From Candidatus Ferrigenium bremense (GTDB lineage: Bacteria > Pseudomonadota > Gammaproteobacteria > Burkholderiales > Gallionellaceae): a stretch of 64,000 nucleotides of DNA. Below, one piece after another: positions 10,503 through 52,026 of the stretch. Positions within the stretch are counted from its first letter, which is position 1, and each line of letters starts with the position of its first letter. The notes under the pieces are model-generated. The model ran no database searches. It was not told the DNA's origin and was given only the letters and a program-made list of their open reading frames with translations. Both the position numbers and the translations under genes were made by a program. Location: contig JAGRPI010000003.1 in the NCBI GenBank assembly GCA_019449635.1, positions 1-64,000 on the forward strand. Reading direction: 5' to 3'.

Positions 10503-10764
10503 GGCTTGTCTCCTTGGGGGAGGTTGTTTGTAGTGCGTCGGATAATACGCTTAACAGTGCGATTCCTCAATAGCTAAGGAGCGGTATTGTTTCGGGTCTG
10601 AAATACAGCAAACCAAAGCGAACCAAAAGGGTTAGCATCATTTTGTCTTGCGTAGAGCAATTCCAAAGGGACGTTATTTTAGGTTTTGCGCAAGAACTAA
10701 AATAAGGCAAAGCGCTAATTCAAGGAAGCTGTCCGTACGCCGCCCCAACCCCTCCCATGCAACT

Positions 10765-10812
10765 CCCAGCCATTCGACTAGCTTGGCAATAGACAAGTCG
10801 CTGGTTATCCCA
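10765..10812. repeat. GACTAG/AAGTCG hairpin repeat, copy 1
   Basis: CCAGCCATTCGACTAGCTTG pairs with CAAGTCGCTGG across a short loop. It is the same family as the elements at 14350-14510 and inside murD at 31206-31255. CCTCCC and GAGGGA flank it as in the murD copy. Confidence 0.75.
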
Positions 10813-14199: not shown

Positions 14200-14349
14200 A
14201 GGCTCACCTTCAGGTTGCGACGTGGTCACAATTTGCCACACCCCGTATTTGCAGGTTTTCAGCCAGGCACGCGCAAAAAATCCATCCCAACTGCCATGGC
14301 AAGGATGCCGTCTCCGGGAATGAAACTTGCCATGCCTGTTTCCCTGATG

Positions 14350-14510
14350 GAACTACTAGCCATTCCACTAGGCTGTCCAACGACGGCAACCAAGTGGCTG
14401 GTTATCACCTCAATCCTCTGGGTGAAACAACTAGCCATTCGACCAAGCCCGCGAGCGGGCAAGTCGCTGGTTATCTCCCAACACAAGGGAGAGGGAGCGA
14501 ACGAGTCGCT
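14350..14510. repeat. Tandem GACTAG/AAGTCG hairpin repeat, copies 2 and 3
   Basis: Unit 1 (about 14353-14408) has TAGCCATTCCACTAGG and CCAAGTGGCTGG; unit 2 (about 14430-14477) has TAGCCATTCGACCAAGCCCG and CGGGCAAGTCGCTGG. Both end in GGTTATC. CCAC/GTGG in unit 1 is CGAC/GTCG in unit 2, a paired change that keeps the stem. GGGAGAGGGAGC follows unit 2, as in the murD copy. Confidence 0.8.
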
Positions 14511-21040: not shown

Positions 21041-21078
21041 CCCCTCGCCCGCTTGCGGGAGAGGGCGGGGTGAGGGAA
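21041..21078. repeat. CCCTCTCCC-type palindrome, copy near pyrC
   Basis: CCCTCGCCCGC (21042-21052) faces GCGGGAGAGGG (21055-21065) over a 2-base loop, followed by CGGGGTGAGGG. This is the first of many copies in the window. Confidence 0.85.
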
Positions 21079-21179: not shown

Positions 21180-21220
21180 CTCCTCTCCCGCAAGCGGGAG
21201 AGGAGTTGGGGAGAGGGGAG
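21180..21220. repeat. CCTCTCCCGC palindrome
   Basis: CTCCTCTCCCGC (21180-21191) pairs perfectly with GCGGGAGAGGAG (21194-21205), followed by TTGGGGAGAGGGG. It is the same family as 21041-21078 but with paired substitutions in the stem. Confidence 0.88.
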
Positions 21221-28190: not shown

Positions 28191-29689
28191 ACAGCTCGGG
28201 CATGATGCTGCTCTCGCAAGCCGCGCAAGTGCTGAATGGCCGGCTGGTCGGCCACGATGTGCGCTTCGCTGCGGTCTCGACCGACAGCCGGAAGATCAAG
28301 GCCGGCGATCTGTTCATCGCCTTGCGCGGCGAACATTTCGACGGCTACGAGTTTGTCGCGACCGCCGTGCAGTCCGGTGCCGCCGCGGCGATGGCCAACG
28401 CCGACAGCTACGAGGCGCGCCCTTCGCTTGCGCATCCCGAATCCCGAATCCCGAATCCTGATTTTCCGATCCTGATCGTGGAGGATACGCGCCTCGCGCT
28501 GGGGCAACTCGCGGCGTACTGGCGCGAGCAGTTCGACATCCCGCTGGCGGCGATCACCGGCAGCAACGGCAAGACCACGGTGAAGGAAATGCTCACCGGC
28601 ATCCTGCGCGCGGCGGCAGGCAGCGATAACGCGGTGTTGGCCACCCAGGGCAATTTCAACAACGACATCGGCATGCCGCTGACCCTGCTGCAATTGAATG
28701 CGCGGCATCGCTATGCCGTGATCGAGATGGGCATGAACCATCCCGGCGAAATCGATTACCTGACGCATATCGCCCGTCCGGATGTCGCGCTGATCACCAA
28801 TGCCAGCGGTGCGCATCTGGCAGGACTGGGTTCGGTGCTGGCAGTTGCGCATGCAAAAGGTGAAATCTTTGCCGGGCTCAAGCATCAGGGAATCGCAGTG
28901 ATCAATGCCGATGATGACCATGCGCCGCTTTGGCGGACGCTTGCCGGCTCGCACCCGTTGCTTGAATTCGGTCTGGGCGGCATGACACGGTGTGCGCAAG
29001 CCGACGTGACCGGGGGATGGCAGCCGCAAGGTGCCGGGCTGCAGCTGGACGCACATACCCCGTCGGGAGATTTCAGCGCGGATCTGCAAGTGCCCGGCGC
29101 GCACAACGCGCGCAACGCATTGGCGGCAACCGCCGCAGCGATCGCGTTGAATGTGCCGCTGGAAGTCATCGCCATGGGACTGGAAAGATTCGTCGGCGTA
29201 GCCGGGCGTCTGCAGCGCAAGGCCGCGCGGCATGGCGCGGTATTGATCGACGACACCTATAACGCCAATCCTGCCTCGATGCGCGCTGCGATCGGCGTCC
29301 TGGCAGAGGCCAAAGGCAAGCGTGTGATGGTGATGGGCGATATGGGCGAATTGGGCGATGACGCCGTCATGCTCCACGCCGGAATCGGCACCGAGGCTCG
29401 CAGCGCCGGGATCGAGAAATTCCTTGCGCTGGGCGCGTTGAGCGTCAACGCAGTGCGCTCTTTCGGCTGCGGCGCGGAACATTTCGAGCGCATCGAGGAT
29501 CTGCAGAAAGCATTGGAAGAAGAACTGGACGAGGATACCACCGTGCTGGTGAAGGGTTCGCGCTTCATGAAAATGGAGCGCGTGGTGCAGTATCTGGAGA
29601 GTGGTGAGTTGGAAGTGGGGAGTGGAAAACCCGCCTCCCGCTCACCACTTTCCACTCCCCACTTACCAAAGGAAAAAAAATGTTGCTAG
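28187..29689 (+). CDS. murF: UDP-MurNAc-pentapeptide synthetase MurF, with repeat-derived segments
   Basis: A 500-residue Mur ligase adding D-Ala-D-Ala. P-loop [13 protein letters not shown], then [29 protein letters not shown] and [15 protein letters not shown] chose the ATG at 28187 (ATGA overlap with murE). Two parts look foreign: residues about 80-96 ([17 protein letters not shown]), encoded by four ATCCCGA-type heptamers, and the last 27 or so residues after VVQYLE ([15 protein letters not shown] and on), encoded by a 16-bp perfect hairpin. The catalytic core is intact. The stop overlaps mraY by 10 bases. Confidence 0.95.
28434..28461. repeat. Heptamer tandem repeat inside murF
   Basis: ATCCCGA occurs three times in tandem and once as ATCCTGA, 28 bases in all. 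It is translated in frame as part of the murF N-domain linker. Confidence 0.9.
29613..29664. repeat. Perfect 16-bp hairpin at the murF 3' end
   Basis: AAGTGGGGAGTGGAAA (29613-29628) pairs with TTTCCACTCCCCACTT (29649-29664), loop 20 bases. It encodes the murF tail and ends 15 bases before the mraY ATG. Related GTGGGAAGTGGGGAGT words occur at the murB 3' end and at an acyltransferase 3' end. Confidence 0.92.
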
Positions 29690-30765
29690 CATTCGCACAA
29701 TGGCTCGCACAGGACGTCAGGTTCTTCAGCGTGTTCAATTACATCACGCTGCGCGCCGTGCTGGCGGCGATGACCGCACTGTTCATTTCGTTCCTGGTCG
29801 GCCCGGCGATGATCCGCAAGCTGACCGCCTACAAGATCGGTCAATCGGTGCGCAACGACGGGCCGCAGACGCATCTGGTCAAGGCCGGCACGCCGACGAT
29901 GGGCGGCGCGCTGATCCTCACATCGATCGCGATCACCACGTTGCTGTGGGGCGATCTGCACAATCATTACGTGTGGGTGGTGCTGCTCACCACGCTGGGT
30001 TTCGGCGTGATCGGCTGGGTGGACGATTACCGCAAGGTGGTGCATCGCAACCCCAAGGGGCTGTCGGCCAGGGCCAAGATGTCCTGGCAATCGATCATCG
30101 CGCTGCTGGTCGGCATCTATCTATGGAACGCCGCTAGCCTGCCCGCACATACCGAACTCATCGTGCCCTTCATGAAATTCCTGGTATTCCCGCTCCCGGC
30201 ATTCCTGTTCATCGTGCTGGCCTATCTGGTCATCGTCGGCACCAGCAACGCGGTGAATCTGACCGACGGACTGGACGGGCTGGCCATCATGCCGACCGTG
30301 CTGGTAAGCGGTGCGCTGGCGATCTTCGCCTACGTGGCGGGCAATGTGGTGTTCTCGAAATATCTCGGCATCCCTTACATCCCGGGTGCGGGCGAACTGG
30401 CGATATTTTGCAGTGCGATTGCCGGCGCCGGGCTGGCTTTCCTGTGGTTCAACGCCTATCCCGCCGAAGTGTTCATGGGCGATGTCGGCGCGCTGGCGCT
30501 CGGTGCGGCGCTCGGCGTCGTGGCGGTGATCGTGCGCCAGGAACTGGTGCTGTTCATCATGGGCGGCGTGTTCGTGGTCGAAGCGGTGTCGGTGATGATC
30601 CAGGTGGCCTCATTCAAGCTCACCGGCAAGCGCGTGTTCAGGATGGCGCCGCTGCACCACCACTATGAATTGAAGGGCTGGAAAGAGACCCAGGTCGTGG
30701 TTCGTTTCTGGATCATCACGATGCTGCTGGTATTGGTCGGGTTGGCGACGTTGAAGTTGCGATAG
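29680..30765 (+). CDS. mraY: Phospho-MurNAc-pentapeptide transferase MraY
   Basis: A 361-residue, ten-segment membrane enzyme that makes lipid I from UDP-MurNAc-pentapeptide and undecaprenyl phosphate. It has [12 protein letters not shown], the DDYRKV aspartates, [16 protein letters not shown] and [14 protein letters not shown], plus the HHHYE region ([12 protein letters not shown]). AAAGGA precedes the ATG. Its TAG stop lies in the left arm of the following repeat. Confidence 0.97.
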
Positions 30766-30823
30766 ACGTAAGTAGGAAGACGTAAGACATAAGTTGGGGT
30801 GGATTTACTAACAACTTACGTCT
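30764..30823. repeat. GACGTAAGT inverted repeat between mraY and murD
   Basis: AGACGTAAGT (30764-30773) pairs perfectly with ACTTACGTCT (30814-30823); an extra AGACGTAAGAC word lies between. It covers the mraY stop codon and ends 14 bases before the murD ribosome-binding site. Confidence 0.88.
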
Positions 30824-30846
30824 AACGGCTGTATTTAGGAGAAACA

Positions 30847-32343
30847 TTGAAACAATGGGCTGACAAATTCGTGCTGGTGCTCGGTCTCGGCGAGACCGGG
30901 CTCTCGCTCGCACGCTGGCTGAGTGCGCAGGGCGCGCGCCTGCGCGTCGCGGACAGCCGCAGTGAGCCGCCCGGTCTGGCCGAAGCCGGCCGGTATGTCG
31001 CGGCCGCGCAGATTTTTTGCGGCGCATTCGGCGATGCCTTGTTTGAAGACATCGATCTGATCGCCATCAGCCCGGGCGTGCCGCTGCGCGATCCTTTTGT
31101 GCAGCGTGCCATCGCGCGCGGCATTCCGGTGGTTGGTGATATCGAGCTGTTTGCGCAACATATCAATAACTCGCTGTCCCCCCTCTCCCCAACCCTGGGT
31201 GAAACAACTAGCCATTCGACTAGGCTGCAAACGACCGCAGCCAAGTCGCTGGTTATCTCCCACGAGGGGAGAGGGAGCAAACGAGAAGGGCGTCCTTTGA
31301 TCCTCGCGATTACCGGCGCGAACGGCAAGACCACCGTGACCAGCATGGTGGAACATCTGTGCAAGGCGGCGGGCAAGGATGCCGTCGCGGCAGGCAACAT
31401 CTCCCCTGCGGTGCTGGACGTGGTTCTGGCGCGCGGCGCTAACCAGCCGGAAATATGGGTGCTGGAATTGTCCAGCTTCCAGCTCGAAACGACCGCAACG
31501 CTGAATGCCGATGCGGCGACGGTACTCAACATCAGCGAAGACCATCTCGACCGCTATGCCGGTATCAATGAATACGCGGCGGCCAAGGCGCGCATCTTTG
31601 CGGGCTGCGAAGTGCAGGTGCTGAACCGCGACGATGCGCGCAGCATGGGCATGGCGCGCGCCGGTAGCAAGGTGGTTACCTTTGGCCTGAACCTGCCCGG
31701 CAGCGCAAACGATTTTGGCATTGAAAAAGCGGGGAATGAAACCTGGCTGAAACTGGGCGGCGAGCGACTGCTCAATGCAGACGAGTTGCAGATCGCGGGA
31801 TTGCACAACGTCGCCAACGCATTGGCCGCGCTGGCATTGTGCCGTGCGATCGATCTGCCGATGCCGGTGTTGCTCGACGCATTGCGCAGCTTCAGGGGAT
31901 TGCCGCATCGCGTGGAGCGCGTGGCCGAGATCGACGGCGTGCTCTATTACGACGATTCCAAAGGGACCAATGTCGGCGCGACGGTCGCCGCCCTCGAAGG
32001 GCTGGGGCGGCGAGTGGTGCTGATCGCGGGCGGCGAGGGTAAGGGGCAGGATTTCGCGCCGCTCAGGCCGGCCGTGACGCGGCATGCGCGCGCGGTGGTG
32101 CTGATCGGGCGGGATGCGCCGCTGATCGCGTCGGCGCTGGAGGGCTGCGGCGTACCGGTGCTGTATGCCAGCAACATGAGCGAGGCGGTGCGGCAGGCCG
32201 CGCAACTCGCGCAATCGGGCGATGCGGTGCTGCTGTCGCCGGCTTGCGCCAGCTTCGACATGTTCCACAACTACGCGCATCGTGCCGAGATGTTTGTGGA
32301 AGCGGTGCATGAGTTGATCAAGGAGGCCGCATGGTCTCGCTGA
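30847..32343 (+). CDS. murD: UDP-MurNAc-L-Ala:D-Glu ligase MurD with a repeat insertion
   Basis: A 498-residue MurD, about 40 residues longer than usual. It starts at TTG (30847) with AGGAG five bases upstream ([17 protein letters not shown]). Between [11 protein letters not shown] and the P-loop [13 protein letters not shown], where the family has about seven residues, it carries about 40 extra ([20 protein letters not shown] and [20 protein letters not shown]). These are encoded by a palindromic element related to intergenic copies at 10.8 and 14.4 kb. The reading frame and the catalytic motifs ([31 protein letters not shown]) are intact. Its 3' end overlaps ftsW. Confidence 0.95.
31171..31287. 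repeat. Nested palindromic element in frame inside murD
   Basis: Outer arms CCCTCTCCCC (31181-31190) and GGGGAGAGGG (31266-31275) are perfect. Inner arms CTAGCCATTCGACTAGGCTG (31208-31227) and CAGCCAAGTCGCTGG (31238-31252) pair with one bulge. The inner part belongs to the family at 10765 and 14350; the outer part to the CCCTCTCCC family. No stop codon arises in the murD frame. Confidence 0.92.
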
Positions 32344-34731: not shown

Positions 34732-36197
34732 AGCACAAGGTCAAACATCTGCATTTCGTCGGCATCGGCGGCTCCGGCATGAACGGCATCGCCGAAGTGC
34801 TGCTGAACCTCGGCTTCCAGGTCAGCGGCTCCGACCTCGGCGAAAACGTAGCCACACAACGCCTCAGGCAACTCGGTGCGACGGTGTATCTCGGCCATGC
34901 CGAACAGCATCTCACCGACGCCGATGCGGTGGTTATTTCGACCGCGGTCGGCAAGGACAACCCCGAAGTGCTGGCGGCGCGCGCGCGCCGCATCCCGGTG
35001 GTGCCGCGCGCGATGATGCTGGCGGAACTGATGCGCCTGCGCCAGGGCATCGCGGTAGCGGGCACGCACGGCAAGACCACCACCACCTCGCTGGCCGCCA
35101 GCGTGCTGGCCAAGGGCGGTTTCGACCCCACCTTCGTGATCGGCGGCAAGCTCAACAGTAGCGGCGCCAATGCCAGGCTCGGTACCGGAGAATTCATCGT
35201 CGCCGAGGCCGACGAATCGGATGCGTCGTTCCTGTACCTGCAGCCGATCCTCGCGGTGATCACCAACATCGACGCCGATCACATGGAGACCTACGGCCAC
35301 GACTTCGGCAGGCTCAAGCAGGCGTTCGTGGACTTCGTCGAACACCTGCCGTTCTACGGCATGGCGATGCTGTGCATCGACGATGCCAACGTGCGCGAGA
35401 TCCTGCCGCGCATCAGCAAGCCGGTATGCACTTATGGTTTTGGCGAGGGCGCGCAGGTCCGCGCGGTGAACGTGCGCCATCAGGGCGGGCAGATGCGCTT
35501 CACCGCCGAGTGCCGCCAGAACGGCACTCCGAAAGACCTGGACATCGTCCTCAACCTGGCCGGGGCGCACAACGTGCTGAACGCGCTCGCCGCGATCGCG
35601 ATCGGGCTGGAGGTGGGCGTGGCGGACGACGCCATCGTGGCCGCCTTGGCCGAGTTCCAGGGCGTGGGGCGGAGGTTCCAGCGGTATGGGGAGATTGCGT
35701 TGGCCGAAAACCCTCTCTCCAACTCTCTCCCGCCTGCGGGAGAGAGTGCGATCGTTTCCTCTTCCAAAGGCGGAAGAGGCAGCTTTACTTTGATCGACGA
35801 CTACGGCCACCACCCGGTGGAAATGGCCGCCACGCTGAATGCGGCGCGCGGCGCTTTCCCCGGCAGGCGGCTGGTGCTGGCCTTTCAGCCGCACCGCTAC
35901 ACGCGCACCCGCGACCTGTTCGAGGATTTCGTCAAGGTGCTGCGCGGCGTGGACGCGCTGCTGCTGGCGGAAGTCTATGCGGCGGGAGAGCCGCCCATCG
36001 TCGCGGCGGACGGGCGCGCGCTGATGCATGCGTTGCGCGTCGCCGGGCAGGACAAGGCGGTGTTCGTCGAGAACATCCGGGATATGCCGCAGGCCGTCAT
36101 GCAGATGGCGCGCGACGGCGATGTGGTGATCACGATGGGCGCGGGCTCGATCGGCAGCGTGCCCGGCGCGCTGATGCAAATGAACAACCAGCCATGA
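34728..36197 (+). CDS. murC: UDP-MurNAc:L-Ala ligase MurC with a repeat insertion
   Basis: A 489-residue MurC, about 20 longer than typical. Domains are the UDP-binding N-terminus ([14 protein letters not shown]), the ATPase ([34 protein letters not shown]) and the C-terminal domain ([30 protein letters not shown]). Between [11 protein letters not shown] and [10 protein letters not shown] it has about 25 extra residues ([20 protein letters not shown] and on) encoded by two perfect hairpins. The junction is the domain 2/3 boundary, a place likely to tolerate insertion. The stop overlaps the murB ATG. Confidence 0.95.
35704..35783. repeat. Double-hairpin palindromic element in frame inside murC
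   Basis: ACTCTCTCCCGC (35722-35733) pairs with GCGGGAGAGAGT (35736-35747), 12 bp perfect. CCTCTTCC (35758-35765) pairs with GGAAGAGG (35772-35779), 8 bp perfect. The first is the CCCTCTCCC-family palindrome with paired changes. Confidence 0.92.
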
Positions 36198-37243
36198 ACA
36201 TGAGCGAACCGAAACAATTCAAGACAGAAGGCCTGCGCGGAAAGCTGTGCTGCGACATGCCCATGAGCCGCCATACCAGCTGGCGCGCGGGCGGCGTTGC
36301 CGAACGCATGTACCGGCCCGCCGACCTGGACGATCTGCTGGCGTTCCTGCGCGGCTTGCCGGCCGATGAACCGCTGCATGCGGTGGGCCTGGGCAGCAAC
36401 CTGCTGGTGCGCGACGGCGGGTTGCGCGGCACGGTATTGCTGCTGCACGGCGCGCTGAGCGAACTGCGCCTTGAAGCTGACGGCAGCATTTATGCCGAAG
36501 CCGGTGTGCCGGGCGCGAAGCTGGCGCGCTTCGCCGCCTTGCACAACCTGCGCGGCGCGGAATTCTTCGCCGGCATACCCGGCACGATCGGCGGCATGCT
36601 GGCGATGAACGCCGGCTGCTACGGCAGCGAGATATGGCAGAAGGTGTTGCGAGTGTTGACGGTTGACCGGAGTGGTGCGATGCATGAGCGGACTCCGCTT
36701 GATTATGAGATCGGTTACCGGCATGTGTCGCTACGGAGCAAGCTCCCCTCTACCGCAGGCGGGAGAGGGGCTGGGGGTGAGGGATGGTATTCGGAGTTTT
36801 TCGTCGCCGCATGGCTGAAGTTCGAGGCAGGCGATGGTGCAATCGCACGGCAGGAGATCAAGGCGCTGCTCGGTAAACGCATCGCCAGCCAGCCGCTGAA
36901 CCTGCCGAATGCCGGGTCGGTATTCCGCAACCCGCCGGGCGATCATGCGGCGCGGCTGATCCAGCAGTGCGGGCTGAAGGGCAGGCGCGTCGGCGGCGCG
37001 CAGGTGTCGGAGAAACATGCCAATTTCATCGTGAACACCGGTAGCGCGACGGCGGCGGACATCGAGAATCTGATCAACGAAGTGCAAACAGTGGTGCGGC
37101 AGCAGACCGGCATCGAGCTGCATCCGGAAGTAAGGATTATCGGGGAGTGGGAAGTGGGGAGTGGGAAGTCGGAAGTGGGAGAAGTTTCTCCCACTGAGGC
37201 ACGAAGTGCCGTTCCACTTGCCAATCAGGACAAGACAAGATGA
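36194..37243 (+). CDS. murB: UDP-N-acetylenolpyruvoylglucosamine reductase MurB with repeat-derived parts
   Basis: A 349-residue flavoenzyme reducing enolpyruvyl-UDP-GlcNAc to UDP-MurNAc. It has [72 protein letters not shown] and [12 protein letters not shown]. The ATG at 36194 overlaps the murC stop. Two parts look repeat-derived: about 17 residues at 183-199 ([17 protein letters not shown]) and the tail after VRIIGE ([20 protein letters not shown] and on, about 30 residues). The core fold is complete, so it is probably functional. Confidence 0.94.
36743..36790. repeat. CCCTCTCCC-type palindrome in frame inside murB
   Basis: CCCCTCTACCGC (36745-36756) faces GCGGGAGAGGGG (36759-36770) with one mismatch, followed by CTGGGGGTGAGGG, the usual tail of this family. 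It encodes [13 protein letters not shown]. Confidence 0.92.
37143..37219. repeat. GTGGGAAGTGGGGAGT repeat at the murB 3' end
   Basis: GAGTGGGAAGTGGGGAGTGG (37145-37164) is followed by AGTGGGAGAA (37175-37184) paired with TTCTCCCACT (37187-37196), then GGCAC-GAA-GTGCC. It encodes the murB C-terminal tail and ends 20 bases before the ddlB ATG. Confidence 0.88.
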
Positions 37244-38248: not shown

Positions 38249-38311
38249 CCCTCGCCCGCTTGCGGGAGAGGGTTGGGGAGAGGGAATCTCCGGGAGAGAG
38301 TTAGAGAGAGG
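38249..38311. repeat. CCCTCTCCC-type palindrome upstream of ftsQ
   Basis: CCCTCGCCCGC (38249-38259) faces GCGGGAGAGGG (38262-38272), then TTGGGGAGAGGGAATCTCCG and GGGAGAGAGTTAGAGAGAGGG. The last AGAGAGGG lies six bases before the ftsQ ATG and serves as its ribosome-binding site. Confidence 0.88.
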
Positions 38312-42826: not shown

Positions 42827-44494
42827 ATGCCGGTAATGGTTCGCAAAATCTTATATCCTGCCGATTGGCTTGTGGTGTTCTGCATGACGTTCTTCCTTTG
42901 CGCAGCGCCGATCGCAGCCGTCCACGCGGAAGGGGCGGAGGGCGGGCAGGGCACAGCGCCTGTCGTGAAAAAGAAAATCGCGCTCGTCCAGTTCGATGTC
43001 GCCAACACGCAGCATGTCGACGACATCAACAACGTCTATGACGGGCTCCCGTTGGCGCTTGCCAGCCGGCTGGAAGCAAGCGGGGGGTTCCTGACCACCT
43101 ATACCGGACGTTCGATCCCGGCAGAGGCGGGCGAAGCGCAGCGCGCAGACATCACCCAGATTGCCGAAGAGGCAGGCGCACAATTCCTGATTTACGGCAC
43201 GGTGGTGAATGCCGGAACGAAACAGGAAAAAGGCTTCCTCGGGACATCGATCGGCGGATCCACGAAAAGGCACATCGAAGTCGAGTTTTCTGTCTACGAC
43301 GGGCTGACCGGCGCGCGCCTGCTGCAGCGCCGCCTGGACGAACAGGCGCAGGGCGAAGTGCGGGTGGGCAACAACAAGCCTTTCGGCAGCAGCATCTTCT
43401 TTGAAACGGAACTGGGGCAGGCGCTGAACCGCCTGCTCGATCTTGCCGTCAAGGACATACGCGCGACATTGGAAGACGTGCCGTTTTCCGCGCACGTCAT
43501 CCGGGCCGAGGCAAAGAAGGTCTTTCTCGATGCGGGCAGCGACGCGCTGCTGAAACCCGGCGACCGGCTCGTCGTTTACGTCAGGGATGCGGCTCCGGTG
43601 GTCGGGCTGAAGGGTTCGGTGCTGGGCGTCACGGATCGCGCCGCGGATACGGCCACCCTGACCCAGGTCCAGCCGCAGTTCTCCATCGGCGAATTGTCGG
43701 ATGAGGCGGCGAAACTCGGCATCAAGGCGGGCAGCACCGCGAGGATCGACCCTATCGTGCAGCGCAGCCTGGACGAGAAACAAATGGAAGCCAGGAAGGT
43801 TGCCAGGGCACAGCAGGAAGCCAAGGTAGAGGCGGAGCAAGTCAAAGCGGAGCAAGCCGCGCAGGCGAAAGCAGCGCGAGCGAAAGCGGAACAAGCCGCC
43901 AAGGACGAAGCCGCCCGGATCAAGGCGGAGAAAAAAGCGGCAGCGCAAGCCAAGGCGCAGGCCGCCGCCGAGGCCAAGGCAGCCAAATTGAAAGCCAGGC
44001 AGGAGGCCAGAGCCGCCCGGATCAAGGCGGAGCGGGAAGCCCGGGCCAGGGAGCAATCCCGCGAGAAAGTGCGCGCCGCCGCCGAAGCCAAGGCAGCCAA
44101 ATTGAAAGCCCAGCAGGAAGCCAAACAGGAAGCCGAGGCCGAAGCGGCGTGCCGCAAGGCCCAAACAGTGTGCCTCAAGGCCGAGCAGAAGGCGCAGGCA
44201 GAAGCGGAGGCCAAGCCAGCGGCAGAATCCATCAAGCCGGTCACAGAACCCAAGCTTGCAGCGGAGCCCAAGCCAGCCAAGCAAGAACCCAGGGCTGCGG
44301 CAGCGCCTGAATCCGCCAAGGCAAAAATGACACCGAAAGCCCAGGCCGGAACGGAAGTGCGCGCTGTCGCGATAGAGGATCTGCAGCGGGCGGCAGCGGA
44401 AGCCGAAGCGGCAAAGGCTGACGCGGCATCAAGCGTGCCGCCGGAGCAGAAGAAGCCGGGAGTGTCGTTGAAGCTGAAACAGATCAAGCCTTAG
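42827..44494 (+). CDS. Exported CsgG/FlgT-like protein with a long Ala/Lys/Glu helix
   Basis: A 555-residue exported protein with a signal peptide (hydrophobic LVVFCMTFFLCAAPIAAVHA). Residues 45-200 (KKIALVQFDVANTQHVDDIN, TYTGRSIPAEAGE, AGAQFLIYGTVVNAG, VYDGLTGARLLQRRLDEQ) resemble the CsgG/LpoB/FlgT-type periplasmic fold. Residues 215-300 (RAEAKKVFLDAGSDALLKPG and on) resemble the FlgT C-terminal beta domain. From about 305 to 470 it is a TolA-like Ala/Lys/Glu coiled coil, then a Pro-rich tail. No flagellar gene is near. It may bridge the periplasm or contact the cell wall; that is inference. Confidence 0.7.
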   Translation: MPVMVRKILYPADWLVVFCMTFFLCAAPIAAVHAEGAEGGQGTAPVVKKKIALVQFDVANTQHVDDINNVYDGLPLALASRLEASGGFLTTYTGRSIPAEAGEAQRADITQIAEEAGAQFLIYGTVVNAGTKQEKGFLGTSIGGSTKRHIEVEFSVYDGLTGARLLQRRLDEQAQGEVRVGNNKPFGSSIFFETELGQALNRLLDLAVKDIRATLEDVPFSAHVIRAEAKKVFLDAGSDALLKPGDRLVVYVRDAAPVVGLKGSVLGVTDRAADTATLTQVQPQFSIGELSDEAAKLGIKAGSTARIDPIVQRSLDEKQMEARKVARAQQEAKVEAEQVKAEQAAQAKAARAKAEQAAKDEAARIKAEKKAAAQAKAQAAAEAKAAKLKARQEARAARIKAEREARAREQSREKVRAAAEAKAAKLKAQQEAKQEAEAEAACRKAQTVCLKAEQKAQAEAEAKPAAESIKPVTEPKLAAEPKPAKQEPRAAAAPESAKAKMTPKAQAGTEVRAVAIEDLQRAAAEAEAAKADAASSVPPEQKKPGVSLKLKQIKP

Positions 44495-50232: not shown

Positions 50233-50320
50233 ACCCCTCTCCCTAACCCTCTCCCCCAAGGGGAGAGGGAATAATCAACTCCCCTCTCCCGCTAGCGTGA
50301 GAGGGGTTGGGGGAGAGGGC
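50233..50320. repeat. Two CCCTCTCCC palindromes between acyltransferase 2 and ubiD
   Basis: CCCTCTCCCC (50247-50256) pairs with GGGGAGAGGG (50260-50269). CCCCTCTCCCGC (50281-50292) pairs with GCGTGAGAGGGG (50294-50305) except at one base, followed by TTGGGGGAGAGGG. Confidence 0.92.
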
Positions 50321-51802: not shown

Positions 51803-52026
51803 GAATGCAGGGCGGATTGGCATGGCGTTAACCGATGACTTAGCGAGCGTTGTTTGATCGCTTAGTCAGAGGGCCATGCAAAGCTATCCGCCGGATGAGA
51901 TACATCGTGCGGCGCAATGCCCTTCGGTGATTGCGCCCTTGTATTATCCCATCGCAGTGAATTCGATGGAATGGTTGCCATCGAAACCGTGTAGTAACTC
52001 TTGAGAGGCATCTCAAGAACGAGTCA

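Follow-up and report, generated by a model that had tools for sequence, protein, structure and literature searches.

The host-restricted genus Rickettsia is the best-known source of palindromic repeats that lie in frame within proteins. Nearly half of the first-described Rickettsia palindromic elements (RPEs) of R. conorii lie in ORFs according to one account (PMC10969869), and a description of intragenic REPs (GTAG/CGTC) in O. terrae, Thauera and Xanthomonas (PMC3733652) has some of them wholly within ORFs, many encoding 20–30 residues, in genes that include those for tRNA synthetases and DNA polymerase I; the main text of the latter paper contains no mention of Gallionella. The TnpA-REP nuclease of E. 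coli is described as cleaving at CT, 5' or 3' of the REP and beside a bulged hairpin (PMC8266576). The enzyme needs a GTAG tag. The murD gene analysed here lies in a 64,000-nt stretch of DNA (the whole of which we call the window) that is part of contig C22 of a 2.41-Mb MAG of 42 contigs (G000). Its insert probably consists of two mobile palindromic repeats, one nested in the other, of which the REP came first and a 60-nt element, perhaps moved as a single strand, came later.

The insert in the MurD linker

The window murD (Table 1) is single-copy, with one match in its own genome at E ≤ 1e-30, and its protein has its closest named relatives in Gallionella MAGs. Pfam matches to MurD-like_N (residues 9–97), Mur_ligase_M (155–331) and Mur_ligase_C (354–467) have bounds that place the extra residues in the linker between MurD domains 1 and 2; the insert amounts to 35–38 residues between the N-terminal and ATPase domains and is absent from nearly all relatives. 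The first-pass annotation had claimed a lengthened linker in an unbroken frame, and both points hold: the ORF is open over 498 aa with no stop within the insert, and the stretch from GDIELF to GKT measures 66 residues in the window as against 28–31 in 68 of 75 distinct MurD sequences (window included; two lack the search motif), 34 and 36 in one each, and the intermediate values of 46 in L040/G008 and 50 in L077. The intact sequence of this single-copy essential gene suggests that MurD tolerates the loop. A structure model of the window MurD has a mean pLDDT of 84.6, with 420 of 498 residues at 70 or above; values below 50 are confined to residues 468–476 and 111–145, the latter being the insert (about 30), so the loop is predicted to be disordered, a point that the annotation had raised for checking. 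The product of the insert is, on this model, probably a polar, disordered loop. The best 33 PDB matches of the model are all MurDs, reaching E 1.2e-43 at an rmsd of 8.2 (a high value that we put down to domain placement), and alignment to the solved Pseudomonas aeruginosa MurD 7sy9 breaks at the insert, where query residues 105 and 146 adjoin chain residues 106 and 105.

The DNA of the insert stretch folds with an energy of -62 kcal/mol, whereas shuffles average -39.7 (z -6.2) and none of 200 does as well, and a search of window positions 30700–31700 against Rfam at E ≤ 1 returned no known RNA family. BLAST of this stretch within its own genome gave 49 matches at E ≤ 1 (self included), and it is 76–93 percent identical over some 50–117 nt to more than 40 other genomic places. 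An old protein loop that merely resembles intergenic repeats would be shared by all relatives without likeness in DNA, as the first-pass annotation had reasoned; this genomic identity and the absence of the residues from nearly all relatives refute such a loop, we found no point in its favour, and its probability is practically nil.

The same annotation had described the insert as one nested palindrome. Its outer arms (CCCTCTCCCC and GGGGAGAGGG) and inner arms (GACTAGGCTGC and GCAGCCAAGTC) are present and the nesting stands, but the single palindrome is better resolved into two elements, an outer REP-like palindrome and an inner element of 60 nt. The REP-like palindrome occurs alone in two related Gallionella murD genes, those of L077 and, in a shorter form, L040 (whose protein is identical to L140 of G008). 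The L077 murD DNA reads CCCAACCCT CTCCCGCGAGGGGAGAGGGAGC, and the window is alike save for a few substitutions and the 60 nt that stand between CCCAACCCT and CTCCC; the empty site is CCCAACCCT/CTCCCGCGAGGGG in L077 (here and below a slash marks a junction), as compared with CCCAACCCT, the 60 nt and CTCCCACGAGGGG in the window. Alignment with relatives thus gives the exact insertion that had been anticipated, a bare gain of 60 nt, and the same is seen in TsaD; no target duplication was found at the junctions of either murD (against L077) or TsaD (against G029). In a FastTree tree of MurD from which the insert columns had been removed, L077 is the sister of the window (support 0.85), and L040/L140 fall within the window's wider MurD clade (support 1.0), with insert-free members between them and weak inner support. 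The C-terminus of MurD in G015 and G052 carries a composite of REP and inner element whose junction, AACCCT/GATG...TTAT/CTCCC, is the same as that of the window.

The events behind the murD insert can be set out as follows. A REP-like palindrome probably entered the domain 1/2 linker in frame and persisted there, as the relatives that carry the REP alone show; in the window lineage a non-autonomous 60-nt element then probably entered this REP just 3' of a CT, without target duplication, as the comparison with L077 shows. Since 60 nt make 20 codons and the frame used is open, the murD reading frame survives, and it is presumably because the frame is kept and stays open that the element is tolerated. 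To move, the element would fold as single-stranded DNA, be cut at CT by a Y1 HUH nuclease of the RAYT/TnpA-REP type, and dock into existing REP hairpins.

Other repeats are found in the murD of relatives and in the window murF. The murD linkers of L039, L047 and L061, which lack the REP, have ACGACTAGCGACTTACGAC- or GGATTCAGGATTC-like repeats, so several kinds of repeat may insert preferentially at this linker. A second repeat, in the window murF (Table 1), is also in frame in the MurD of L039/L188 and of L170 (93–96 percent over about 24–32 nt) and occurs at other places besides; its positions include L039 4048–4149 and 6403–6465, L170 and L052. An in-frame insert, EPSVPPSRRAR, is common to five MurDs (L050, L058, L189 (as L053), L191 (as L055) and L192), where it stands before the residue aligned to window MurD 270; it is apparently a third repeat type.

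Table 1. Positions in the window of murD, of its nested repeats and of other repeats
Feature	Positions	Strand	Remarks
murD	30847..32340	+	498 aa; TTG start; intact frame without internal stop
Older REP-like palindrome, left part (CCCCCCTCTCCCCAACCCT)	31178..31196	+	common to L077 murD, partly to L040
Outer palindrome arms	31181..31190 and 31266..31275		
Inner 60-nt element (GGGTGAAAC...GCTGGTTAT)	31197..31256	+	imperfect hairpin; absent from the otherwise matching L077 REP
Inner palindrome arms	31218..31228 and 31237..31247		read by eye
Older REP-like palindrome, right part (CTCCCACGAGGGGAGAGGG) and tail	31257..31288	+	comparison with L077
Inner element copy, short, about 53 nt	10757..10808	+	nhmmer, E=2e-10
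Inner element copy, first of close pair	14346..14405	+	nhmmer; no recognised gene
Inner element copy, second of pair, short class (54–55 nt)	14421..14474	+	nhmmer; REP-like context
Partial, weak inner-element match, uncertain	51829..51874	-	nhmmer, E=0.0006
Repeat in murF	28970..29020		encodes GGMT(R/Q)CAQASGAG
Separate REP family (CCCTCGCCCGCTTGCGGGAGAGGG type), six copies	21042..21070, 21181..21209, 35723..35751, 36746..36774, 38249..38277, 50282..50310		at least 72 percent
Run of imperfect direct repeats, 30–58 nt	43808..44246		

Length, fold and insertion sites of the 60-nt element

The consensus drawn from the genomic copies of the element is GATGAAAC(T/A)ACTAGCCATTCGACTAGGCTGCC...GGCAGCCAAGTCGCTGGTTAT, and an alternative type (GG-type) begins with GGGTG or GGATG. 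The intergenic copies that had been proposed near 10.8 and 14.4 kb exist (Table 1), and a count over the genome with nhmmer found 128 full or partial copies in the examined stretches of its 2.4 Mb, a number in which the near-identical starts of contigs C9, C11 and C29 are entered separately. The inner-element copies at these three contig starts (L204, L203 and L202, respectively) are in tandem and probably mark assembly breaks at repeats.

The measured length is 60 nt in 33 of 45 copies (8 of 53 candidates had no clear ends). Pairing of half-sites, for which the first 100 listed occurrences of each conserved half were used, yielded 85 pairs that imply lengths of 60 nt (52 pairs), 59 nt (12), 54 nt (15) or other values (6); of the 12 pairs implying 59 nt, nine belong to GG-type copies with a measured length of 60, one is really 59 nt long and two fall outside the measured set. 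No long element was traced from the halves left unpaired (16 of the 100 listed 5' halves and 15 of the 100 listed 3' halves). With up to two mismatches allowed, the two halves have 145 and 149 occurrences in the genome, compared with 56 and 14 for the reversed controls. Against 1000 shuffles in which the relatedness of the copies was not kept, the paired columns of the hairpin covary, with 17 double-change cells (3.2 on average and at most 10 in the shuffles), and pairing stands at 93.1 percent (at most 91.6 in the shuffles). The idea that the element is unusually open was rejected, as 60-nt copies have 2.76 open frames each versus 2.34 in shuffles, whose maximum is 2.88; its striking trait is its fixed length, not openness.

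A CT stands directly 5' of 75 of the 85 full-length copies, compared with 5.4 percent in the flanks (an HMM-based count that assigns the extra 5' G of 12 GG-type copies to the element). Several copies are nested in palindromes that plainly differ, such as GACAGGCT/CAGGGTGAACGG and GAGCCT/GTCGAAGGGC. Joined across the copy, the flanks give a better fold than shuffles (p ≤ 0.05) in 20 of 45 cases and do not in the other 25. These sites bear on an alternative in which REP and inner element travel together as a single composite, which replaced or converted an older murD REP. Composites of the same arrangement are indeed present at many loci, and in another genus too (G080, 99 percent over 72/73 nt), and unrelated loci have REP tails in common. 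On the other hand, outside the 60 nt both murD and TsaD match their local REP-only relatives, the junction varies by 2 nt from locus to locus (AACCCT/CTCCC as against CCCTCT/CCCGC), and inner copies also lie within unrelated palindromes. We therefore regard travel as a unit as unlikely, and separate arrival of REP and 60-nt element as the better account.

Host genes and spread among relatives

In the genome of the window 66 copies are found within frames of 120 aa or longer that extend at least 30 aa on either side of the copy. A Pfam scan of 48 ORFs found the element internal in 24 and terminal or unclear in 9, with no family for 15; the search covered copies in open frames, and at least 24 recognised genes hold the element in frame. 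Named from their Pfam matches, the genes with internal copies encode MurD, RecJ, TilS, SucA, peptide deformylase, GlnD, an Exo_endo_phos protein, LysA, phosphoglucomutase, ApbE (where the region beyond the copy was assigned by eye), Mfd, CobB, a TgpA-like transglutaminase (half element), a CusA/CzcA-type pump, KdsB, LpxK, TsaD, an MgtC-DUF4010 protein, an APH-family kinase, AroA-Cmk, an HD-GYP protein, ValS, an AMP-binding (FadD-like) enzyme and an RluA-type synthase. In three of them, namely pump, kinase and AroA, the internal position rests on a second matched stretch (without coordinates) and on residues. Lengthened housekeeping enzymes are thus predicted from the gene sequences of this MAG. 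The 24 genes hold 27 copies, of which, in a hand tally, 19 start in the ETTSHSTR frame, two in the second sense frame and six in antisense, and some ETTSHSTR-frame copies, such as that in MurD, shift to the second frame within the element.

Such a preference for the polar frame, used 19 times as against two for the second sense frame when both are about equally often open, is what might be expected if the inserts had been recruited for a function, for example as a regulated flexible hinge in MurD, and the REP part is retained in three sequences at the same MurD linker. The sites and genes are diverse, however, nearly all MurD relatives do without the insert, and the loop is predicted to be disordered, so that we think recruitment very improbable; insertion of mobile repeats that are tolerated remains the preferred reading.

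In other genomes, DNA polymerase I of G020 has the element between its domains, and copies are also found within an RNB-domain protein of G080 and a Mur-ligase-family protein of G217. TsaD, which is present in 46 of 61 genomes of the genus and was aligned for 30, offers a second series, with 24 empty genes, three with the REP only (G010, G020 and G029) and three composites (G000, G003 and G011). In the TsaD tree G000 stands with an empty genome, apart from the other composites, and the empty G052 is placed among composites; this discord indicates that loss, recurrent insertion or recombination is mixed in. A single origin of the TsaD insert was considered and set aside, as the TsaD tree gives it no support. 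Matches to the element occur in 56 of 61 genomes of the genus, in 118 of 150 genomes of the family (13 of 15 genera), and in 7 of 200 genomes of the order, five of these seven being in the family. G217, which belongs to another family, has two copies identical to the window over 63 nt, which suggests transfer.

Candidate mobilisers and comparison with known systems

The window's own genome has five matches to the Y1 transposase family (PF01797). One of these, a 178-aa protein on contig C3, we take to be a RAYT from its likeness to E. coli YafM, and a second RAYT homologue lies at C42:95463 (L309). The gene of the 178-aa protein (L211, G000 C3:16734-17267) is flanked by GTAGGTCGGGTTAGCGCA repeats and appears to have a REPtron of its own. 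No inner element was found near the Y1 genes of G000, at the five PF01797 loci or at L309. Among the 61 genomes of the genus RAYT is present in 34 of 43 that are element-rich (at least 13 scored matches) and in 3 of 18 that are element-poor (p 8e-6; Spearman 0.58; kinship ignored); RAYT matches are missing from nine of the 43 element-rich genomes, including the incomplete G022, G025 and G046, and G023 has a match although it is free of the element. In the genus the inner element lies within about 2 kb at 4 of 20 RAYT places (of 86 listed), compared with 2 of 58 murD/tsaD stretches from other genomes, but RAYT place G027 C5:765012 was chosen with knowledge of the nearby element, and without it the count is 3 of 19. 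In G013 the end of a RAYT gene (L313 1893-2507) is formed by an element that sits in a GGCGGGTT...AACCCGCC palindrome and codes for the final residues, and another copy lies there beyond a run of N after the gene; given this run and a repeated block beside the gene, the assembly may be faulty at that place. We infer, at somewhat under an even chance, that a Y1 HUH nuclease of the RAYT/TnpA-REP type moves the element.

A different enzyme, either an IS200/IS605 transposase (the other Y1 family here) or a REP-targeting recombinase of the IS110 type, is a further possibility, likewise at somewhat under an even chance. Four other Y1 matches in the genome have open frames of 245–255 aa, a literature search on REP insertion listed a paper on IS110 bridge RNA, and a conserved GTAG tag is absent from the element: CTAC, the complement of GTAG, occupies the corresponding position in 9 of the 35 copies aligned (hand count). 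IS110 transposases are present in 34 of the 61 genomes of the genus, but their association with element richness (27 of 43 rich and 7 of 18 poor; Fisher p 0.10; Spearman 0.30; kinship ignored) is weaker than that of RAYT, and no autonomous parent element sharing these ends was found.

On a more speculative reading, which we think rather less likely than not, a single-strand-mobile element might home to the hairpins of other repeats at CT, keep its length at whole codons (60 or 54 nt), dock safely in REPs already fixed in genes and so lengthen essential enzymes stepwise by polar, disordered loops, acting as a self-propagating generator of linkers across the Gallionellaceae. The intermediates kept in murD and tsaD make the order of events readable, and this in turn opens to testing the long-standing question of how mobile DNA enters essential proteins and whether the loops later gain functions. 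It appears that housekeeping proteins can be rewritten by mobile DNA and still stay intact, and the CT junction and covarying hairpin offer a concrete biochemical handle for RAYT.

Among the matches listed, the openly licensed literature gave no prior description of the 60-nt element, and its nearest counterparts are the following. In its effect it is like the Rickettsia palindromic elements, as the first-pass annotation had proposed, since palindromic repeats lie in frame within many unrelated genes (here 24 of the 48 scanned ORFs); the outcome is the same, now in MAGs akin to iron-oxidising Gallionella and in many housekeeping enzymes. This likeness of effect does not by itself make the element an RPE: RPEs are about 150 bp long (PMC10969869), whereas the present element has 60 nt (54 in a minor class), belongs to the Gallionellaceae, among the betaproteobacteria, and is nested in a REP-like repeat. 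Intragenic REPs are likewise short, dispersed palindromes of high copy number; judged on length and GTAG, the inner element differs in its 60 nt (REPs have 20–40 nt) and in having no conserved GTAG, and it enters other palindromes. Substrates of RAYT/TnpA-REP resemble it in the bulged, imperfect and here covarying hairpin and in the CT at the junction, and the presence of RAYT tracks element richness; it departs from them in the lack of copies near the Y1 genes of G000 (though there is one in G013). Bacterial MITEs are also short, non-autonomous and dispersed, with in-frame fusions on record (PMC10969869), but the two resolved junctions here have no target duplication and no parent transposon was traced. 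Palindromes within proteins are thus already known, from RPEs (PMC10969869) and from intragenic REPs (PMC3733652); what is added here is an element of fixed codon length that is nested at CT in other palindromes, together with the intermediates that survive and the count of housekeeping enzymes that carry it.
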